64,000 bases of DNA from a virus, in IMG/VR virus record IMGVR_UViG_3300020411_000371, positions 45,594 to 109,593 of that record, one strand, 5' to 3'. Shown piece after piece: positions 19,976-30,199 of this stretch (the first letter of the stretch is position 1; each line of letters begins with the position of its first letter). A program made the translations under genes and the position numbers. The notes beneath the pieces were generated by a model, which saw only the letters and a list, made by a program, of their open reading frames with translations, made no database searches and was not told the origin of the DNA.

Positions 19976-20932
19976 TTATAGTGTATCAATAAGTTCTGTC
20001 AGTCCATTTTGTACCACTTTCTGATCTGGCACTCTCTGTTGTATTAGTTCCTGATACTCTTCATGCAACTCACATCCAATATAATGTCTATTATGTTTCT
20101 TAGATACCATTGCTGTAGTTCCACTACCTATGAATGGGTCAAGTATCAAATCTCCTTCTCTACTCCCTGCTAATATGCAAGGTTCAATTAAGTCAGGTGG
20201 AAATACTGCAAAGTGACTTCCTTTGTATGGTTTATTTGTTACTGTCCAAACATCACGTTTATTTTTCCTGTCATAAGACTTGGTAAGACCACTATGAGGA
20301 GATAACCCACTCCCACTATTATGGTACTTACCATTTGTGCGGTCTCTTGTTCCCCAGTCTTGCTTGACTGGTTCTTTAATTGCTTCATTGTCATAATAAT
20401 ACTTTTTGTTTTTAGAGAATAAGAATATATGCTCATGAGATTTAGTGCATCTATCCTTAACTGATTCTGGCATTGGATTAGGTTTATGCCATATAATATC
20501 CTGTCTTAAATACCATCCATCATCACGCATTGCGAACGCAAACATCCAAGGGATGCCGATTAAATCTTTCTCTTTTAATCCATCTAATTTGTTACCACGT
20601 TTATTACATTTATCTGGTAAATCTTGTTTAGTTTTAGATACTGACTGTTTAGGATATGATTGACCTTTGCCTGGTCTATAATTATAATAACTATCCCCTA
20701 AGTTAACCCATAGAGTTCCATCATCAGATAATTTATCTTTTATTATTCTGAATACATTGACTAAGTTGTCAATATACTCTTTTGGACTATTTTCCTGTCC
20801 TAATTGCTTTTCTTCTCCACCATAGTCCCTAAGACCGTAATATGGGGGGGATGTAACACACGTTTGAACACTTAGATTTGTTAGATTCTTAAGTGTTTCA
20901 CGACAGTCTCCATATAAGATTGTGTCTATCAT
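19976..20932 (-). CDS. Site-specific DNA methyltransferase (N4-cytosine or N6-adenine, beta class)
   Basis: 318 residues. The catalytic TSPPYYGLRDYG (about residues 28-39) comes first and the S-adenosylmethionine motif DPFIGSGTTA lies near residues 270-280, the beta-class order of N4/N6 methylases (PF01555). It modifies specific DNA sites, probably protecting phage DNA from host restriction. A run of seven G in the DNA encodes the Pro-Pro-Tyr region and does not break the frame. The start overlaps the upstream 100-residue gene by ATGA. No recognition domain can be read from sequence. Confidence 0.88.
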   Translation of the reverse strand: MIDTILYGDCRETLKNLTNLSVQTCVTSPPYYGLRDYGGEEKQLGQENSPKEYIDNLVNVFRIIKDKLSDDGTLWVNLGDSYYNYRPGKGQSYPKQSVSKTKQDLPDKCNKRGNKLDGLKEKDLIGIPWMFAFAMRDDGWYLRQDIIWHKPNPMPESVKDRCTKSHEHIFLFSKNKKYYYDNEAIKEPVKQDWGTRDRTNGKYHNSGSGLSPHSGLTKSYDRKNKRDVWTVTNKPYKGSHFAVFPPDLIEPCILAGSREGDLILDPFIGSGTTAMVSKKHNRHYIGCELHEEYQELIQQRVPDQKVVQNGLTELIDTL

Positions 20933-21231
20933 TGTGATTTCTTTATATCATCATGTAATCTTTTAGTTGCTAACTCTTTTTGTTCCTTCATATACTCTTC
21001 TCTACCATCTTTTGTAAATACTTTCTTCTCATAATCAAAATATGGATGAGGTTCAGCACTAATAACTGGGTCTTTAGTTTTATTCTTAATTACAATAAAT
21101 CTATCGTTAGCAAATGTCCCTGCTAATTGTACTACAACTTCATCATCATCTTTCCAATTAATACTACCATCCTTTTTGGTGTGTAGCATTGCTTCCTGTA
21201 TCTGGTCGATAATCTCTTGAGTTAGTTTCAT
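20929..21231 (-). CDS. Hypothetical protein, 100 residues
   Basis: Not recognised. Basic and acidic residues are mixed, with WKDDDEVVVQLAGTFANDRF then DPVISAEPHPYFDYEKK. It is coupled to the methyltransferase (ATGA), so it could be a partner of the enzyme or simply a co-expressed gene. Confidence 0.6.
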   Translation of the reverse strand: MKLTQEIIDQIQEAMLHTKKDGSINWKDDDEVVVQLAGTFANDRFIVIKNKTKDPVISAEPHPYFDYEKKVFTKDGREEYMKEQKELATKRLHDDIKKSQ

Positions 21232-22366: not shown

Positions 22367-23479
22367 CTAGTAGTTCAAAATACCAGTAGTTAGTACTTGT
22401 TCTTTCATTTGTTTGAATCTTGGTCTAGCAAGAAATTCTTGAAACCATTTCTGGTATCCTATTTTTGCTCCTTGATTCTGTTTGTGATGTAATCCTTCCT
22501 CTACTGCTACGTCTAACCAGTATGTGAAAAATGGCACTCCCTGAGCAAATCCATCCATCTTACCTCTATCAGGTATGTAAACAGTTCCACCAAATCCAGG
22601 TTGTTTGTTCTCTCTTTGTATCCATCCAGTAGCATTTAATCTTCCTTTTGTTGACATTGAGATCGTAACAATATCACCAAACTCATCCTCTACTTTCTCA
22701 TTAATTAGTTTCATAATATGTTCTATGTTAGCATGAAATGTTCCTCTCCTAGTGTGAAGTAGAAATAATGATGTGATGAACGTTTGATCGAAATGCTTAT
22801 TGATACCAGTTTCATTTAATAGGTTATCAACTGCAATAATTTCATCTTTATATTGCATGATCGCATTTTGCATCTTAGTCCTACGATATTCACTCTGAGT
22901 TATAGTATCGTCATTTGTCTCTGTCCATAATCCCTTGATACCATAATTATCTGGGTCATCATATTGACATAAGTATGATAATGCTGTGACATATTGTCCT
23001 TCTTGAAACTTCTTAGTTTTCAAGTTCATACCTAGTGACTTCTGACATCCTGTAACAACTTCTGCTGCGACCTCTGCTGCTGTAGGATTATCAAATGTCC
23101 AGTATGTTCTCCTTAGTTTTATTAAACTATCTTCAAGATACATCACACATAATACATTTTCGGGTATTCTATCTGTTTTCCCTGATTCCCACAAATATGA
23201 TCTAGTGTTAGCATCAAGTCTCCAAATAGTACCTGCACTATATTTTGTGCCATCTTCCCACTCATCATCCTTAGTTAATTTACCTAATCCAACTATATGA
23301 TGTGTAGGAAATAATTTCCTTAAGTGATCTATTACACTTTTCTTAGTTGCTCTTTGTTTTGTATTGCGTTGAGTTATCCACTCTGGGTACGCTAAAAAAT
23401 CACTAGTTTTCTGTAAACTAATGACTACGTTTGGAATACCTGGTAAACTATACCATACTCCCACCTCTAATGGTGTCAT
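22367..23479 (-). CDS. Possible ParB/sulfiredoxin-fold protein in the methyltransferase island
   Basis: 370 residues. Around residues 85-115 is IWRLDANTRSYLWESGKTDR followed by a VLCVMYLED strand, a pattern like the DGNHR box of ParB/Srx domains, in which a short phosphate-binding turn precedes a helix. A TYWTFDNPTAAEVAAEV segment follows, then a helical C-terminus. ParB-like proteins can bind or cut DNA or use CTP. The gene sits between two methyltransferases and is joined to the second by a 29-residue bridging ORF, so a DNA-modification or restriction role is plausible but unproven. Confidence 0.5.
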   Translation of the reverse strand: MTPLEVGVWYSLPGIPNVVISLQKTSDFLAYPEWITQRNTKQRATKKSVIDHLRKLFPTHHIVGLGKLTKDDEWEDGTKYSAGTIWRLDANTRSYLWESGKTDRIPENVLCVMYLEDSLIKLRRTYWTFDNPTAAEVAAEVVTGCQKSLGMNLKTKKFQEGQYVTALSYLCQYDDPDNYGIKGLWTETNDDTITQSEYRRTKMQNAIMQYKDEIIAVDNLLNETGINKHFDQTFITSLFLLHTRRGTFHANIEHIMKLINEKVEDEFGDIVTISMSTKGRLNATGWIQRENKQPGFGGTVYIPDRGKMDGFAQGVPFFTYWLDVAVEEGLHHKQNQGAKIGYQKWFQEFLARPRFKQMKEQVLTTGILNY

Positions 23480-23565
23480 GTCTTTTCTCCGTTGTTATAC
23501 GTTTTGCAATCTTGCTCGACTGGTGTGTCTCCACTAAAATTGCTTTGTTCATTATTATATATCAT
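23476..23565 (-). CDS. Bridging micro-ORF, 29 residues
   Basis: ATG 23563-23565 overlaps the stop of the methyltransferase and its TGA (23476-23478) overlaps the start of the ParB-like gene, both as ATGA. Such exact double coupling suggests it is translated. Composition polar; function unknown. Confidence 0.45.
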   Translation of the reverse strand: MIYNNEQSNFSGDTPVEQDCKTYNNGEKT

Positions 23566-24347
23566 CTTAATAAACTTTTCAACCCACCTTCTACTCTTTG
23601 TTTAGAATACTTAACATACTCTGGGTCAATATCATAACCAATATAATCCCATCCTAAGTTAACTGATGCTACTGCTGTAGTTCCAGTTCCCATAAATGGG
23701 TCAAGTACAATACCATTATTGATACCAGTTAATAGTAAACAATCTTCTACTAACTTAACTGGAAAAATAGCGGGGTGGTTACCTTTCTCTAGTTTACTTT
23801 GTCTAGTCTCATAAGGTATGAACCATGTATTACCTTTATCTCTAAGGTTAGGTTTATTCTCCTTAGTATTATTACCTCTGATATTTGCTTCATAGTATTC
23901 ATACTTAACACCAACTGCAAGTCTATCAATTTCTACCTTACCATCTTTTGTAAAATGAAATAGATGCTCCCATGTAGGGCATAAGAATCTCTTACTATTG
24001 ATAGGTTTAAAATGTCCATGTGTCTTATCAGTATGAATACTTTTAACCCATGTAATATGATTCTGTAAGATATAATTATCTCTTAGTTTACAGCATACAT
24101 CTATACCTACAGTAGGATTGACATTTGAGTATCCCATGTTAACAAATAGATGACCTTCATCTTTAAGTACACGTTTACACTCTGCAAATACATCACCTAA
24201 CCACGATAGATACTGGTCTAGTGGTTTAGTATCATTATACTTACTGTATTTGATATTCAAATTGTATGGTGGAGAAGTAACTATAGCATCAACTGATTTA
24301 TCATCTAGTTTCTGCATACCTTCTATGCAATCACCCAAATAAAACAT
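23562..24347 (-). CDS. DNA methyltransferase of a PvuII-like restriction-modification pair
   Basis: 261 residues with TSPPYNLNIKYSKYND (about 29-44) as catalytic motif IV and DPFMGTGTTAVASVN near residue 220 as S-adenosylmethionine motif I: beta-class N4-cytosine/N6-adenine methylase. The TSPPY core and the size fit N4C enzymes like M.PvuII. The start overlaps the end of the endonuclease-like gene by 17 nt, so both are made from one message. It presumably methylates the site cut by its neighbour. Exact base and site unknown. Confidence 0.88.
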   Translation of the reverse strand: MFYLGDCIEGMQKLDDKSVDAIVTSPPYNLNIKYSKYNDTKPLDQYLSWLGDVFAECKRVLKDEGHLFVNMGYSNVNPTVGIDVCCKLRDNYILQNHITWVKSIHTDKTHGHFKPINSKRFLCPTWEHLFHFTKDGKVEIDRLAVGVKYEYYEANIRGNNTKENKPNLRDKGNTWFIPYETRQSKLEKGNHPAIFPVKLVEDCLLLTGINNGIVLDPFMGTGTTAVASVNLGWDYIGYDIDPEYVKYSKQRVEGGLKSLLR

Positions 24348-24780
24348 TTCTATCTTTGAATGGAATTGAACCTTTTGTATATTGTGTCAAGTCAGAACCT
24401 TTTACAAATCTAACTTGAACTTTTGGAAACTCTACTACATCTGTAAATATGTAAATCATATTCTCTGCGTGTTCCCATAACTCTTTCTCATCAACCTTTC
24501 TACCCATACCTAACATACCACTTGGGCAAAATTTTGCTCCACCTCTGGTAAAACATTTTGCATCATACTTGACTCCATCTGTGTCAACGTGGTCATATCC
24601 CTTACCATCTTCAAATGTAAGATTAGGAAACCACTCTTCTAATTGAATCTCAAGAAATCCTGATGCTCTTCTACCATCTGTAAATAACTTATTTACTTTC
24701 TCCTGTGATAGTGTGCCAAATGTAGCATTACAAGTATAAGTATATGTTTTGTTGAGTTCGATTTGAGGTCTGAGTTTCAT
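24331..24780 (-). CDS. PD-(D/E)XK restriction endonuclease, PvuII-like
   Basis: 149 residues, near the 157 of PvuII. Residues 61-76 (GYDHVDTDGVKYDAKC) line up with the PvuII active site as I remember it: Gly-x-Asp-x-Val-Asp-x-x-Gly-x-x-Tyr-acid-x-Lys. That gives Asp63, Asp73 and Lys75 as candidate catalytic residues with the same ten-residue spacing as Asp58/Glu68/Lys70 of PvuII. The gene is first in the unit, ahead of its methyltransferase. It could cut host or competing phage DNA. Identification rests on motif spacing and context; an alignment is needed. Confidence 0.7.
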   Translation of the reverse strand: MKLRPQIELNKTYTYTCNATFGTLSQEKVNKLFTDGRRASGFLEIQLEEWFPNLTFEDGKGYDHVDTDGVKYDAKCFTRGGAKFCPSGMLGMGRKVDEKELWEHAENMIYIFTDVVEFPKVQVRFVKGSDLTQYTKGSIPFKDRNVLFG

Positions 24781-24831
24781 TGATCTCTTTAACTATGATA
24801 CTAGTATAACATACTATTGCTAGTATGTCAC

Positions 24832-25452
24832 TTATATGGTCACTTCTCCAAGTGTCATAGCTTTTCTCTGCATCTTAAAATTACCTGCAAATGTTATCCT
24901 TAGTTCCTCTCTCATGTTAGGTGATACAAAATGAGGATAGTTAGTTGGAAACATAATAATATCTCCTTGCTCTATCTCTAACTGTGTCACTTCATCACCT
25001 GGTACATTCATAATATAATCTAATCCGCTTGATCTATATTCTGTCCATGATGAATCAAAGAAATGAAACTGTGACCCATCACACCTATGAAAATAAACCA
25101 TAGCAATATTATAATCAGGATGACAATGGTTATGAACCTCTTGAAAATCTCCCTCTGTATATTTGTTGACCCATACGTTATCGCATACTAACTCTGTCTC
25201 CCAATATGTTTCTATCTCACTAAGAAACTTATTTTGATATGGTATTAGTATATTGAGGAAATCTTCCCAAATAGGATTTCCGTCACTCTTTCTATCTGTA
25301 GATGTTACTCTACATAATTTCTGCCAATCTTTAGGTATGCCAAAACCATCCCCATCATTATAGATGTCAGCAAACATATCTTCTATCTTTTGCTGATCTA
25401 TTTCTGTGAGTCTATCTTGAAAATACCATTTAGGATTGAAGTGTTTAATCAT
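24832..25452 (-). CDS. 2OG-Fe(II) oxygenase-like protein
   Basis: 206 residues. EVHNHCHPDYNIAMVYFH (about 105-122) offers His107/His109/His111 as metal ligands, IIMFPTNYPHFVSP supplies the distal His174, and Arg185 in RITFAGNF could hold 2-oxoglutarate. The jelly-roll pattern matches phage oxygenases of the TIGR02466 type. It heads a string of small genes leading down from 25.4 kb. A promoter-like TATACT lies just downstream of its stop for the endonuclease unit. Substrate unknown. Confidence 0.75.
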   Translation of the reverse strand: MIKHFNPKWYFQDRLTEIDQQKIEDMFADIYNDGDGFGIPKDWQKLCRVTSTDRKSDGNPIWEDFLNILIPYQNKFLSEIETYWETELVCDNVWVNKYTEGDFQEVHNHCHPDYNIAMVYFHRCDGSQFHFFDSSWTEYRSSGLDYIMNVPGDEVTQLEIEQGDIIMFPTNYPHFVSPNMREELRITFAGNFKMQRKAMTLGEVTI

Positions 25453-25622
25453 TCCTCTATTTCAAAATACCATTTTATGTGTTTGATATAATCAAATGTA
25501 CTACCTATGTCTTTATCACAATTCATAGCATACTTACGATCACATAAAAAATTTCTCAACTCTTCAATAGAGTTGAAACATCCTTGATGTCTTTCGTCAG
25601 TATCATACAAATGATATTTCAT
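25449..25622 (-). CDS. Hypothetical protein, 57 residues
   Basis: ATG 25620-25622, TGA 25449-25451 in an ATGA overlap with the oxygenase-like gene. Similar in feel to the 25994 product (GCFN...IEELRNF compared with GCFNELIEIRDN), so they may share a motif. Unknown role. Confidence 0.55.
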   Translation of the reverse strand: MKYHLYDTDERHQGCFNSIEELRNFLCDRKYAMNCDKDIGSTFDYIKHIKWYFEIEE

Positions 25623-25804
25623 AATGAATCCATGTCTTTTCCATGTTTTGAACGTTTACCTTCTTGAGTTTTATTTCTGACTATAATACAGTTGTTTTTA
25701 TAGTCAGGAACGAAATCTAGAATATCGTCATTATCCCACATGAGTTCTTCATATAGCATATTGAGTTTTTCCATGTCTTGATACAAGTCAGTCGGTTCAT
25801 CCAT
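25619..25804 (-). CDS. Hypothetical protein, 61 residues
   Basis: Acidic N-terminus with MEKLNMLYEELMWDNDDILD, then a basic end. ATGA-type coupling on both sides. Not recognised. Confidence 0.55.
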   Translation of the reverse strand: MDEPTDLYQDMEKLNMLYEELMWDNDDILDFVPDYKNNCIIVRNKTQEGKRSKHGKDMDSL

Positions 25805-25997
25805 GTTTGTATAGTTCCTTTAAATGTAAGTTGTTTGCAATTTCATCAACTTGTTTCATTCTATCATGATATTCTTTAGACGAAATAGTTTTATCCCTAA
25901 AATATTGTTTTTGTAGGGAACAAACATACATTACTAATGAGTCTTTCACAATCAATTTTTGTTCAGTAGTTAGAATTGCTGAATTTAACCCGATCAT
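25797..25997 (-). CDS. Hypothetical protein, 66 residues
   Basis: A helical protein (LTTEQKLIVKDSLVMYVCSL) of unknown function, overlapping both neighbours by 4-8 nt. Confidence 0.55.
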   Translation of the reverse strand: MIGLNSAILTTEQKLIVKDSLVMYVCSLQKQYFRDKTISSKEYHDRMKQVDEIANNLHLKELYKHG

Positions 25998-26194
25998 TTC
26001 CTGAGTGTTTTACTGTACTCTATAATGTTATCACGAATTTCAATTAATTCATTGAAACACCCTTGATTATAAGCACATCCACGCAAATGGGGGTCTGGTT
26101 TAAGTAAAGACTCAATAAACAAATCGAGTCCCCGATTGAACTTGACGTTTTCATCTTCGCCATGCTCAATAGAATTTTGATCTTTTGATGCCAT
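25994..26194 (-). CDS. Hypothetical protein, 66 residues
   Basis: Two cysteines in LRGCAYNQGCFNELIEIRDN. The last part recalls the 25449 product. It adjoins the acidic 44-residue gene by one base. Unknown. Confidence 0.55.
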   Translation of the reverse strand: MASKDQNSIEHGEDENVKFNRGLDLFIESLLKPDPHLRGCAYNQGCFNELIEIRDNIIEYSKTLRK

Positions 26195-26328
26195 TAATCT
26201 TGAGTGGTATAATCTATGTCCATGAGTCCATAACTCATGTCATCATAGTCTAGTCCATCATCAAAATCATCTTCATCCAAGGTCTCGTCTTTCTTTGTAT
26301 TCGTATTTTCTTTCGACTTTTTTGCCAT
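26194..26328 (-). CDS. Small acidic protein, 44 residues, nested with upstream gene
   Basis: The ATG at 26326-26328 follows an AAGAGGAT site and begins MAKKSKENTNTKKDE. The rest is very acidic (DEDDFDDGLDYDDMSYG), the composition of DNA-mimic or inhibitor proteins. Its first 56 nt overlap the 3' end of the next gene in a different frame. Confidence 0.5.
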   Translation of the reverse strand: MAKKSKENTNTKKDETLDEDDFDDGLDYDDMSYGLMDIDYTTQD

Positions 26329-26440
26329 AAGAATCCTCTTTAGAATAACGTTTACTTCCTTTAGCACGTTTGTCTCTGAGTGATTTACCATAACTGTTGT
26401 TACCGTACTCACTACCGCCTCGTCTAAAAGTTTTGCCCAT
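26273..26440 (-). CDS. Small basic protein, 55 residues
   Basis: ATG 26438-26440, TGA 26273-26275. Begins MGKTFRRGGSEYGNNSYGKS and is rich in Arg, Lys, Gly and Ser, a type of small basic protein I have seen repeatedly in cyanomyoviruses. Possible nucleic-acid binder. It overlaps the acidic gene by 56 nt out of frame, an unusual basic/acidic pair. Confidence 0.55.
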   Translation of the reverse strand: MGKTFRRGGSEYGNNSYGKSLRDKRAKGSKRYSKEDSYGKKVERKYEYKERRDLG

Positions 26441-26473
26441 GTTTAAAAAAATGAATTTAACTTTGAACTACAT

Positions 26474-26502
26474 TTTATATAGTAGCATAATACGACTGTT
26501 AA
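26474..26502 (-). promoter_or_regulatory. Sigma70-like promoter
   Basis: Minus strand TTAACA (26497-26502), 17 nt, TATAAA (26474-26479), 34 nt upstream of the basic 55-residue gene. Confidence 0.5.
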
Positions 26503-26517
26503 GTCGAGTATGCTGTG

Positions 26518-26763
26518 TTATTCGATACCAATATCAACATTGTCACGAATGTTATCACGATAAATGGTTTCTGGTTCTCCTGTCTTGATGTTAGGGATGA
26601 TATGGTCATCACTAAACTTACAAGTGAGTTCTTCAAAACAAAATCCAACTCCATGTAGAAAATCCTCTACTTTCTCTACGGTATCCCCTAGAAATTCTGA
26701 GTCAAATGTTTTGGTTGTTACTGTGCCATCTTGGTCTGTGGCAGTTAGAATAAATGAGGGCAT
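26518..26763 (-). CDS. Hypothetical protein, 81 residues
   Basis: Begins MPSFILTATDQDGTVTTKTF, a beta-rich start, then a helix (GDTVEKVEDFLHGVGFCFEE). A small ubiquitin-like or ferredoxin-like fold is possible but not shown. It has its own promoter and stands between the small-gene string and the oxygenase cluster. Confidence 0.6.
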   Translation of the reverse strand: MPSFILTATDQDGTVTTKTFDSEFLGDTVEKVEDFLHGVGFCFEELTCKFSDDHIIPNIKTGEPETIYRDNIRDNVDIGIE

Positions 26764-26785
26764 AATAGTATATGTGGACTCATAT

Positions 26786-26813
26786 ATTCTATCACATATT
26801 TTTTTTATTGCAA
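26786..26813 (-). promoter_or_regulatory. Sigma70-like promoter
   Basis: Minus strand TTGCAA (26808-26813), 16 nt, TAGAAT (26786-26791), 23 nt before the 81-residue gene. Confidence 0.5.
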
Positions 26814-26823
26814 CATTGAGTGG

Positions 26824-27354
26824 TCAGTTTGGTGGTTGGCACAAACTCGATCTTTTATCCCACTTGTAATCCTGATACAAACCTGATCTATCAACATACA
26901 TGAGAAATACTTGTATGTGTCTTGTACCTTGATATGGTTCTCTCCAATGGGGATAGTCTATGCCTTTGTATATGCATATATCACCCACATCCAATTCTAT
27001 TTCTATAGTATGTCCTTCACGCTCAAAGAATATAGGGAAATTACATTGCTTTTCTAAACAGCACGTTACACCATACTCTCCACTTGGTCGATCTGTATGT
27101 CTCTCTAACTCTGATCCATGTCCATATATCCTACCGTATGAGTATGTTGGATGTAATTTCTTACCAGTTTTATTTTCTATTTCTGGTTGCATCCATAACA
27201 ATAAACTCTCTAAGAATACTGGTGAATAATATCCAAATGCATTATTGATAGTTGGGTCTGGTGGGTTGCCCATACTCACTCTCATGAGTTCCATACTATT
27301 ACATAACACCTCGCACGTTTGTTTATTAATGACTTGTTTGACTACGTTTATCAT
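26824..27354 (-). CDS. 2OG-Fe(II) oxygenase, cluster member 1 (HxD...H)
   Basis: 176 residues from ATG 27352-27354, which overlaps the preceding TGA by ATGA; the longer in-frame start is less likely. His86-Thr-Asp88 (ERHTDRPSGEY) and distal His136 (DYPHWREPYQG) are the iron triad. The start of the active-site strand, LHPTYSYGRIYGHGSELERH, is typical of prolyl-hydroxylase-like oxygenases. It is the last gene of the oxygenase string. Substrate unknown. Confidence 0.82.
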   Translation of the reverse strand: MINVVKQVINKQTCEVLCNSMELMRVSMGNPPDPTINNAFGYYSPVFLESLLLWMQPEIENKTGKKLHPTYSYGRIYGHGSELERHTDRPSGEYGVTCCLEKQCNFPIFFEREGHTIEIELDVGDICIYKGIDYPHWREPYQGTRHIQVFLMYVDRSGLYQDYKWDKRSSLCQPPN

Positions 27355-27935
27355 GAGAAATTCATATTGAGTACACATCTAAATGGATTAGTTGTAGTGA
27401 ATGAACTAGCATGAAACCTTACACCATCAAACATGACTAGTCTGCCTTTCTTAGGTGATACTCTTTGTTTAATTGTCCACTTGTTTTCATTTGTTATTCT
27501 ATATGATTCTTCTTCTGTAAACTCTGTTAGTTTTTGGTCAAAGAAAAATGTATCACCATCACAATCATGAACATAATATATTGCTGACCAATGTGGTGTG
27601 TAATTGTCAGTATGTGGTGCATGATGTAATAGTTTAGACTGCTTATTACCTAGCATGAAATTAAATCTTAGTCTTTCTAATACATTCCATTTAATACCAG
27701 TTGCTTCAGTAATACTTAATACCATAGGATATATTAATGGAAATCTAGGTGATACAGGTTTTTGAACTTCATATAACATATGAATGAACCCATCTACATT
27801 GCCTTCATGTTCATCTTCGTTAGTTACAATTCCCTTTCTAAAATGTAATGGGAAATCTTTTTCATTAACTATTTGTTCTATGTGATCTGCATAATCTTTT
27901 GTTATGAAATCATCTACAACTATAATATCATTCAT
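27351..27935 (-). CDS. 2OG-Fe(II) oxygenase, cluster member 2
   Basis: 194 residues. His108-Thr-Asp110 in APHTDNYTPHWSAIYYVHD, distal His175 in DGVRFHASS, and Arg186 in FRCVLNMNF as the 2-oxoglutarate anchor. The phrase VSPKKGRLVMFDG before the distal His is shared with members 4 and 12, which suggests recent duplication. It couples to both neighbours by ATGA. Complete triad, so probably an active hydroxylase. Confidence 0.85.
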   Translation of the reverse strand: MNDIIVVDDFITKDYADHIEQIVNEKDFPLHFRKGIVTNEDEHEGNVDGFIHMLYEVQKPVSPRFPLIYPMVLSITEATGIKWNVLERLRFNFMLGNKQSKLLHHAPHTDNYTPHWSAIYYVHDCDGDTFFFDQKLTEFTEEESYRITNENKWTIKQRVSPKKGRLVMFDGVRFHASSFTTTNPFRCVLNMNFS

Positions 27936-28534
27936 ATCACTCTCCCAAAAAATACTAGAGTCAATCGAGATGTCTCTTTATTATGTCCAAAGAATCTACC
28001 TGCACTATGCCATCTAGTTGAGTCAGATATAACACAACGATTCCATCTATTTTCTGCAAGCATACTAGGTACCCATCTTGAATTGACTTTATCTCTTACA
28101 TCTTCATTCTGTCCTATATTATCATTTACATCATCACAATATTCTTTACTATGGTCTCCATCATTTGATGTATCTCTATCATCATAAAATGTAGTTCCAC
28201 AATCTTGTTTAGGTTTATCGTTGTTTAAATATACAATCCCTGCTACATTCCATTTAGGGTCATCATTATGAACCCATCCTCTTTTATATGTCTCATCTAT
28301 TAACTGAAATGTTGCTTCTAAATGTTGAAATCCTTTATAATTTCTAGGTATATAATTTAATAGTTTATCATGAAATGTATTGAAAAAATTTATATCCAAT
28401 TCATCTAAAAACTTAGTGCGAATACCTGGCCAATTACCTCTATCACCTTTAAAAAACTCTTGCTGTAATGCAAAGTTTCTTACAAGTGTTGGTGTCTCAA
28501 AAAAGTTATCTACTACTGTTAATGGTAGTCTCAT
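27932..28534 (-). CDS. 2OG-Fe(II) oxygenase-like protein (DUF6445-like), cluster member 3
   Basis: 200 residues. His89-Asn-Asp91 (GWVHNDDPKWNVAGIVYL) and distal His176 (DSTRWHSAGRFFG) with Arg190 in SRLTLVFFG. The N-terminus (VVDNFFETPTLVRNFALQQEF) resembles DUF6445 proteins of bacterial modification clusters. An inserted acidic region between the strands (residues 110-150) is long. Coupled by 4-nt overlaps. Confidence 0.75.
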   Translation of the reverse strand: MRLPLTVVDNFFETPTLVRNFALQQEFFKGDRGNWPGIRTKFLDELDINFFNTFHDKLLNYIPRNYKGFQHLEATFQLIDETYKRGWVHNDDPKWNVAGIVYLNNDKPKQDCGTTFYDDRDTSNDGDHSKEYCDDVNDNIGQNEDVRDKVNSRWVPSMLAENRWNRCVISDSTRWHSAGRFFGHNKETSRLTLVFFGRVI

Positions 28535-29049
28535 CTTGTGGAAAAATTATATGTTAGAACAATCCTAGTTGTATGTTCTTTAGGGCATGAACTTGCATGA
28601 GGAAACTTTCCATCAAATACAAAAAACCTTCCCTTCTTAGGTGATACCTTTGTTACTATGTCATCATCCCATACCAACGTATCACCATCACTATTATTCA
28701 AATAGTACAGTCCTACTTTATGTTCAAAGTTAAAATCAATATGCTTATTGTTATGTTCTTGGTCACAATTAGCCAGCAAACATCCTAATCTCATTCTATG
28801 TAATGCACCTAACTTTTGATTTGTTCTATACAAATATTCATTGAGTGGAGCCATGAACATATCTTCCTGACCTGATCTCTTCTGTCCATTGACTAGAACG
28901 TGAGCAAATCCTGGTGTGTTATGTCCTTCTCCCTCTTCAACGTAAGTTACATCAGGCATAAAATGCCAATCAAAACTTAAATCAGTTACCTTACTTAAAA
29001 GGAAATCTTGATGAGATTCTGGAATAATATTTTCAATAGTTTGAATCAT
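28531..29049 (-). CDS. 2OG-Fe(II) oxygenase, cluster member 4
   Basis: 172 residues. His103-Ile-Asp105 (NKHIDFNFEHKVGLYYL), the VSPKKGRFFVFDG phrase shared with member 2, distal His151 (FPHASS) and Arg162 (TRIVLTYNF). All catalytic positions are present. The N-terminal half differs from member 2, so only the catalytic core is duplicated. Confidence 0.83.
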   Translation of the reverse strand: MIQTIENIIPESHQDFLLSKVTDLSFDWHFMPDVTYVEEGEGHNTPGFAHVLVNGQKRSGQEDMFMAPLNEYLYRTNQKLGALHRMRLGCLLANCDQEHNNKHIDFNFEHKVGLYYLNNSDGDTLVWDDDIVTKVSPKKGRFFVFDGKFPHASSCPKEHTTRIVLTYNFSTR

Positions 29050-29627
29050 TTTCTAATTTGTATGTTGAAAGCAATGGATACTCTGTCTGTATTATCTATA
29101 CAGGTATCAACTGAGTGAGGTAACCAACCAGGAAATACAAACATCCTACCAGTTTTAGGTTTATATCTAACTACATCACCTGTTAATGGTGTATGATTTA
29201 TTATTTCTGTATCAGTAGTTTTCATATATTGTTTATCAAAATCTTTATAAAAAATAAGATCGCCACTATTCTCATTTGCTTGAACATAATATACACCTGA
29301 TAAGAATGAACCATGATGTATATGTATTTGATTTGAGTGACCTTGATTATTAATATTGCACCATAAATTATCTACATCAAATGCAGTATATGGATTTAAT
29401 CCCATGTCTTGTTTAACTTGATCTGCTATTTGAATTGCTACTTCACATAATGGTGGTACATGAGTTGAGGGAAATACATTTGACTGCCATCCACCATAAT
29501 TACTAATCTCTCTCCCTTCTGGATTATCAGTTTTTTTATTATATACTATATCTTTTAGATATTCATTATTGAGATTAGTATCTGTCCACCATACTGGTGT
29601 AGGGAAATATAAATCTAGATTAATCAT
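29046..29627 (-). CDS. 2OG-Fe(II) oxygenase-like, TIGR02466 type, cluster member 5
   Basis: 193 residues opening with LYFPTPVWW, the usual TIGR02466 start. His102 and His104/105 (QIHIHHGSFLSGVYYV) and distal His171 (FPGWLPHSVD), then Arg182 in DRVSIAFNIQ. A classical member of this phage-rich family. ATGA coupling on both sides. Confidence 0.85.
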   Translation of the reverse strand: MINLDLYFPTPVWWTDTNLNNEYLKDIVYNKKTDNPEGREISNYGGWQSNVFPSTHVPPLCEVAIQIADQVKQDMGLNPYTAFDVDNLWCNINNQGHSNQIHIHHGSFLSGVYYVQANENSGDLIFYKDFDKQYMKTTDTEIINHTPLTGDVVRYKPKTGRMFVFPGWLPHSVDTCIDNTDRVSIAFNIQIRK

Positions 29628-30199
29628 AATACTATTGGTATAAAACTAAAGTTACCAGTAACTAATTCATTGGTTTGTATATCAAATCCAAATGTAATTC
29701 TTTTATCTGTATAATCTTCTAATACATCAACATAATGAGGTCTGCTACCAACACCAATATAAACTTGATATGGACTATTCTTTATTCTATATAATTCTTT
29801 TCCATTAATCTTATCTTGAAATACAGTATCAGTCTTTTGAGGTGTTAATGAGAAATAACCATGATAAGGGAAATCATGTGAATGAGATTTCAATACTTGA
29901 TCTTTATCATGTATGTTCATCCACATCTGCATCCATACATTATCTTTTGGTATATTATTTACTTCAAAATAATCTTTAATACATTTTACAATAGCAAGAT
30001 ATAAATTGTATGTGTCCTTATTACATGATGCTATACTAAAAAAATTATAGAGATAATAGAAACCAGTATCATGTGTTTTATCATCAAATAAATGTTCAAA
30101 CTTTGCCTTTGACATATCGACATATTGAACTAATTTATCATGATCTATATCACAATGAATAGGGTCAATTTCATATAATTTGTAATCGTTATTTACCAT
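29624..30199 (-). CDS. Oxygenase-like jelly-roll protein, cluster member 6 (divergent)
   Basis: 191 residues. KSHSHDFPYHGYFSL (about 104-118) supplies His106, His108 and Asp109. His155 in GSRPHYVDV and Arg167 in KRITFGFDI are in the places expected for the distal ligand and co-substrate anchor. The rest diverges, so this could be a cupin-type or inactive member. Context within the coupled string supports membership. Confidence 0.6.
   Translation of the reverse strand: MVNNDYKLYEIDPIHCDIDHDKLVQYVDMSKAKFEHLFDDKTHDTGFYYLYNFFSIASCNKDTYNLYLAIVKCIKDYFEVNNIPKDNVWMQMWMNIHDKDQVLKSHSHDFPYHGYFSLTPQKTDTVFQDKINGKELYRIKNSPYQVYIGVGSRPHYVDVLEDYTDKRITFGFDIQTNELVTGNFSFIPIVL

Follow-up and report, generated by a model that had tools for sequence, protein, structure and literature searches.

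A predicted GTAC-directed restriction endonuclease of marine T4-like phages, with and without its methylase

The absence of the tetramer GTAC from marine phage genomes tracks a small restriction endonuclease (R) in phages that carry it without the methylase (M) found behind it in complete pairs. The likely explanation is that R cuts GTAC and M methylates the phage's own GTAC, that the DNA of the host (and of unmodified rivals) is attacked, and that phages with R alone avoid the site. As far as searches of the open-licence literature show, deriving a GTAC specificity from eradication of the site is new, as is the idea of self-protection by two routes.

A recurrent two-gene locus

The window, a 64,000-nt stretch of a 109.6-kb viral record (IMGVR_UViG_3300020411_000371), encodes R and then M on the minus strand (Table 1). 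The initial annotation of this DNA had proposed a restriction pair with a 17-nt overlap, carried by a cyanophage. The pair and its overlap were found as described, both genes are under purifying selection (dN/dS 0.04–0.31 for R and 0.07–0.14 for M), and the pair recurs in other phages with its genes overlapping. The source is a T4-like phage of the Prochlorococcus/Synechococcus type. Its fibre protein is 84–85% identical to the fibres of the Prochlorococcus phages P-SSM3, P-SSM4, and P-RSM3, and the cyanophage label is therefore correct. As in Type II systems, endonuclease and methyltransferase are separate adjacent genes, and both match curated Type II models.

Table 1. Features of the restriction-modification locus, in window coordinates
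Feature	Position	Strand	Basis or remark
R, 149-aa PvuII-like (PD-(D/E)XK) Type II restriction endonuclease, predicted target GTAC	24331..24780	-	PADLOC, AlphaFold2 model, phages with R alone
Codon of catalytic Asp63 of R	24592..24594	-	Invariant in 29-homologue alignment; translation
Codons of Asp73-x-Lys75 of R	24556..24564	-	K75 invariant; most homologues have D/E at 73
R/M overlap, 17 nt	24331..24347	-	R end over M start; translational coupling likely
M, 261-aa beta-class N6/N4 DNA methyltransferase, presumed cognate of R	23562..24347	-	PF01555 E 6.7e-52
Sigma70-like promoter, GTGACA-N17-TATACT	24803..24831	-	22 nt before R start codon; 10/12 matches

R and M would form a two-gene operon, probably under its own sigma70-like promoter. 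Several divergent lineages have sigma70-like boxes whose downstream end lies 21–23 nt before the R start and other lineages lack them; in this region of the window promoter-like matches are no more numerous than in shuffled sequence. Upstream of R lies a series of short minus-strand ORFs (24832-30199). Pfam identifies the first (24832-25452) as a 2OG-Fe(II) oxygenase, which several of the rest resemble on visual inspection. A 370-aa gene downstream (22367-23479) was considered as a third component and set aside, as partial homologues occur in phages with no R match, e.g., ACG-2014d. The window also encodes a second beta-class methyltransferase on the minus strand (19976-20932, 318 aa, PF01555 E 4.9e-58). 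A 100-aa ORF (20929-21231) overlaps it by 4 nt, and no endonuclease was recognized beside it.

R is encoded at 60 IMG/VR loci. In nearly all loci with a complete pair, M comes after R and the genes overlap by 4, 14, 17, or 35 nt, with 17 nt in most lineages. Complete pairs are seldom found in phages, as the initial annotation had remarked, with 9 examples in 831 phage genomes (PMC4176335). The pair as such was already known: It is present in Syn19, Syn2, and ACG-2014j, and the records of Syn19 and ACG-2014j label its genes "R.RsaI endonuclease" and "DNA adenine methylase." These three pairs belong to the same family as the one in the window and share its gene order and overlapping genes (R 36–46% and M about 71% identical), differing in an overlap of 4 or 14 nt rather than 17, and they are known from annotation. 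A search of open-licence papers found nothing on a cyanophage RsaI and no function reported for the Syn19, Syn2, or ACG-2014j pair. What the present searches add is the recurrence of the R-then-M overlap and the existence of marine phages with R but without M.

The recurrence also bears on gene order. Placing the nuclease first had been taken as a sign of a weapon, an argument that is weak by itself because R-first with an overlap is the normal build of the family across lineages and nothing special to this phage. Use against hosts or rivals is still favored, from the conservation of R in phages without M and their freedom from GTAC.

The endonuclease and the methylase

R matches the PADLOC model REase_II PDLC03550 (E 3.9e-13), as do 27 of its 29 homologues. 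Its sequence has no match in Pfam (E up to 1), including the Pfam PvuII endonuclease family, nor in PHROGs, NCBIfam, PDB sequences, or plasmids, and scans of genome contigs found no bacterial relative. The active-site line reads KGYD(63)HVDTDGVKYD(73)AK(75), i.e., D63-x9-D73-x-K75. Asp63 is presumably the equivalent of PvuII Asp58, and Asp73-x-Lys75 is taken to correspond to PvuII Glu68-x-Lys70. Neither D63 nor K75 varies across the 29 homologues, most of which have D or E at residue 73. The PvuII-like active site first noticed in the sequence is conserved in these residues; the ten-residue spacing that had been part of the same claim is not universal, being 11, 12, or more in some homologues.

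The resemblance to PvuII extends to the fold. An AlphaFold2 model of R built from 29 sequences (pLDDT 91.5, pTM 0.87) was compared with the PDB using Foldseek, and the top 12 chains are all PvuII (probability 0.84–1.00, best E 1.4e-3, TM 0.39–0.51). A structure-based alignment with VIA-align also ranks PvuII first, with rmsd 4.6 over 111 residues and a Z of 7.4, which is under the aligner's safe level, a Z below 8 not being decisive by itself; NhoI follows at 7.1 and EcoRV at about 6. NlaIV, EcoRV, NhoI, and other folds considered for R all rank below PvuII. As modeled, R has a PvuII-like fold of the PD-(D/E)XK superfamily with D...(D/E)xK catalytic residues. It shares with PvuII its size, its fold, and a D-x9-(D/E)-x-K active site, and it differs in having no match to the PvuII sequence family and in its predicted target, as PvuII cuts CAGCTG. 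Two uncharacterized phage proteins also have folds similar to R, BFVD E3SI79 from phage S-SM1 (Foldseek E 1.4e-3) and A0A0F6TID3 from Escherichia coli O157 typing phage 5 (E 6e-4), and, judged from predicted structure, these may be further PvuII-like nucleases.

M matches the PADLOC model MTase_II (E 1.8e-80) and has the motifs TSPPYN (residues 24–29) and DPFMGTGTT (residues 216–224). Its best sequence matches in the PDB are N4-cytosine methyltransferases, with adenine enzymes next, and the "adenine" annotation of its relatives is therefore not established. A homologue of M with 57% identity is found in phage ACG-2014f (L204:3980-5483) with no R beside it; it overlaps the next ORF, which bears an NPPY motif, by 17 nt.

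Loss of GTAC in phages with the endonuclease alone

Eight contigs (G001–G007 and G012) encode R with an intact active site and no M behind it. These records are all fragments, and the lack of M holds for the sequence read. They come from two backgrounds. G001–G007 are relatives of Pelagibacter phage HTVC008M (NrdB 68%), of a pelagic myovirus clade, and G012 has a DNA polymerase like that of jumbo phages. The R proteins of the two are 71% identical, and in comparisons of G002 or G005 with G012, R itself is the only DNA similarity found. A 482-aa methylase in G006 is unlikely to be a hidden cognate M, as it fails to match the profile of M and adjoins the DNA polymerase gene, much as an annotated adenine methyltransferase does in phage Mosig, which has no R match.

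GTAC is missing from both backgrounds, with 0 found against 300 expected in G001, G003, G004, G006, and G007 together and 0 against 235 in G012. Among 134 testable tetramers it is the only one absent from both, the next having a ratio of 0.74. When the proteins are kept fixed and synonymous codons are reshuffled, the coding sequence of G012 should hold 196 ± 12 GTACs and that of G006 85 ± 7; neither has any. This loss suggests that GTAC is probably the target of R. In G012, AGCT is also nearly absent (4/195; L107–L110), and L109:14358-15950 resembles, on visual inspection, a DpdA-type transglycosylase, a hint of 7-deazaguanine DNA.

A comparison at a shared locus gives the same result. The control set was drawn from 80 loci sharing a neighbor gene of the lone R, using those of at least 8 kb together with a 50-kb piece of HTVC008M. 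All six carriers of R are GTAC-free (0/186), against 2408/3206 in 55 relatives without R, of which one (L180) has no GTAC. In one of these relatives (L125) the region is syntenic, the position of R is a clean empty site, and GTAC stands at 21/42.

Such a loss could also have been driven by a host restriction system, with R coincidental. Full loss of a tetramer is common in these phages: Zero cells make up about 8% of palindrome-by-genome cells by the author's count in the non-solo genomes of the codon-shuffle set, a base rate at which chance could leave some palindrome missing from both backgrounds, and L180 is GTAC-free with no R in its record. By the author's estimate, a chance absence falling on GTAC itself is much less likely. 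Complete loss of CCGG, GCGC, TCGA, or ACGT is frequent in phages and has other causes. The record containing the window lacks CCGG (0/31 expected) and GCGC (0/26 expected), CCGG is missing too from the stretches read of Syn19, Syn9, P-SSM2, and S-PM2, and in the stretches read ACGT is 0/58 in Mosig (L208) and TCGA is 0/39 in HTVC008M (L201). Host-driven loss is nonetheless unlikely given the contrast of six of six carriers with one of 55 relatives at the same locus. Since all six carriers belong to a single clade, the case draws its strength from the recurrence of the loss in the unrelated jumbo-like background and from the site having been foretold by the R.RsaI annotation; RsaI recognizes GTAC, and homologues of R bear its name in GenBank, a likeness known from annotation.

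GATC was considered as a target of R and rejected. It is wholly or nearly absent from contigs with R alone and from many HTVC008M-like phages without R, as noted in L123–L127, L104, and L105 as well as in R-less relatives, and is near normal in G012; GATC loss does not follow R.

There are exceptions to the GTAC pattern in both directions. One 4.1-kb fragment with R alone (L059) has GTAC at 9/10, and the mosaic contigs G002 and G005 have 8 and 18 GTACs, the nearest lying beyond about 9.7 kb and 3.3 kb from R, respectively. At about 10.95 kb in G005, sequence with GTAC gives way to a block that lacks the site, holds R, and shares 92.7% identity with G002 and G004, which points to a recombinant or an assembly chimera. 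Conversely, L180 (0/49) and L154 (1/37) are poor in GTAC without R, and the remainder of either record likewise yielded no R.

Phages with both genes differ from those with R alone. Their GTAC ratios are 0.41–0.66 (one 0.10) versus 0.29–0.60 in three cyanophages without R, so that most are no poorer in GTAC than the baseline of their lineage, which would fit protection by M.

The lone R also helps in judging two other explanations for the pair. One is a selfish stability module, in which the pair persists because its loss kills the carrier. In its favor, the two genes sit in tight linkage and overlap, an arrangement also seen in bacterial addiction modules. The relatives are T4-like, lytic phages with no plasmid or lysogen to segregate, and addiction could not explain why R without M is under strong purifying selection (dN/dS 0.03–0.055); the conservation of the lone R makes this the least probable of the readings considered. 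The other holds that the locus serves counter-restriction first: M would shield the GTAC sites of the phage against enzymes of the host, and R would be a silent or inactive passenger. The orphan M of ACG-2014f fits such a role, and in phages solitary methylases far outnumber solitary nucleases, 143 to 12 (PMC4176335). This reading is improbable nevertheless, as purifying selection on R is about as strong as on M, R has its catalytic residues, and it is kept without M in phages that have no GTAC.

A probable role during infection

The favored reading is an active GTAC endonuclease. During infection R would cut GTAC sites that lack the modification, in the chromosome of the cyanobacterial host and, equally, in an unmodified rival phage. 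In phages with the pair, DNA would be methylated at entry and M would protect virion and progeny DNA. In phages with R alone, the same enzyme would act without M and find nothing to cut, with no GTAC in the phage's own DNA.

The main target of R is probably unmodified host DNA and possibly that of rival phages. There are viral systems for comparison. CviQI of chlorovirus NY-2A cuts GTAC, and in T4 nuclease attack on the host chromosome (denA/denB) is combined with marking of the phage DNA. The T4 mark is a base replacement, unlike the methylation proposed here. Cyanomyoviruses lack denA, denB, and ndd (PMC2984593). The authors of that review saw two options for these phages, inefficient degradation of host DNA or a route not yet described (PMC2984593). 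The chlorovirus pairs resemble the one in the window in being adjacent viral R and M genes with a short site, presumably directed at host DNA (PMC7019647). They differ in having a eukaryotic host and endonucleases packaged in the virion, and they are likened here by features. The host chromosome is considered the likelier target because of the missing T4 functions in cyanomyoviruses and the chlorovirus precedent, in which the restriction enzymes are credited with host DNA degradation (PMC7019647).

The same enzymes could serve mainly in excluding competing phages from coinfected cells rather than in degrading the host chromosome. Relatives with M but not R, such as the one in ACG-2014f, fit counter-defense against such an attack, GTAC is reduced in many marine phages, and viral restriction of other viruses has been proposed for HHPV4I (PMC10101028). 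In chloroviruses, mutual exclusion turned out to have a cause other than their restriction enzymes (PMC7019647), and exclusion as the main role is a tentative, less probable alternative to an attack on the host.

How cyanomyoviruses degrade host DNA has been unclear, with the enzymes of T4 missing (PMC2984593). The balance of evidence leans, if modestly, to a broader picture in which a GTAC enzyme is a weapon of marine T4-like phages, self-protection comes interchangeably from a linked M or from removal of GTAC, and the enzyme supplies one missing route of host-DNA degradation in phages without denA/denB. As a candidate for this route, the GTAC cutter is directly testable in the isolated phages Syn19 and Syn2. 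Sequences of phages with R alone point to the target of the enzyme without biochemistry, an approach that is transferable to other orphan phage nucleases, and the GTAC-free phages would show a restriction enzyme at work in nature with no accompanying methylase.
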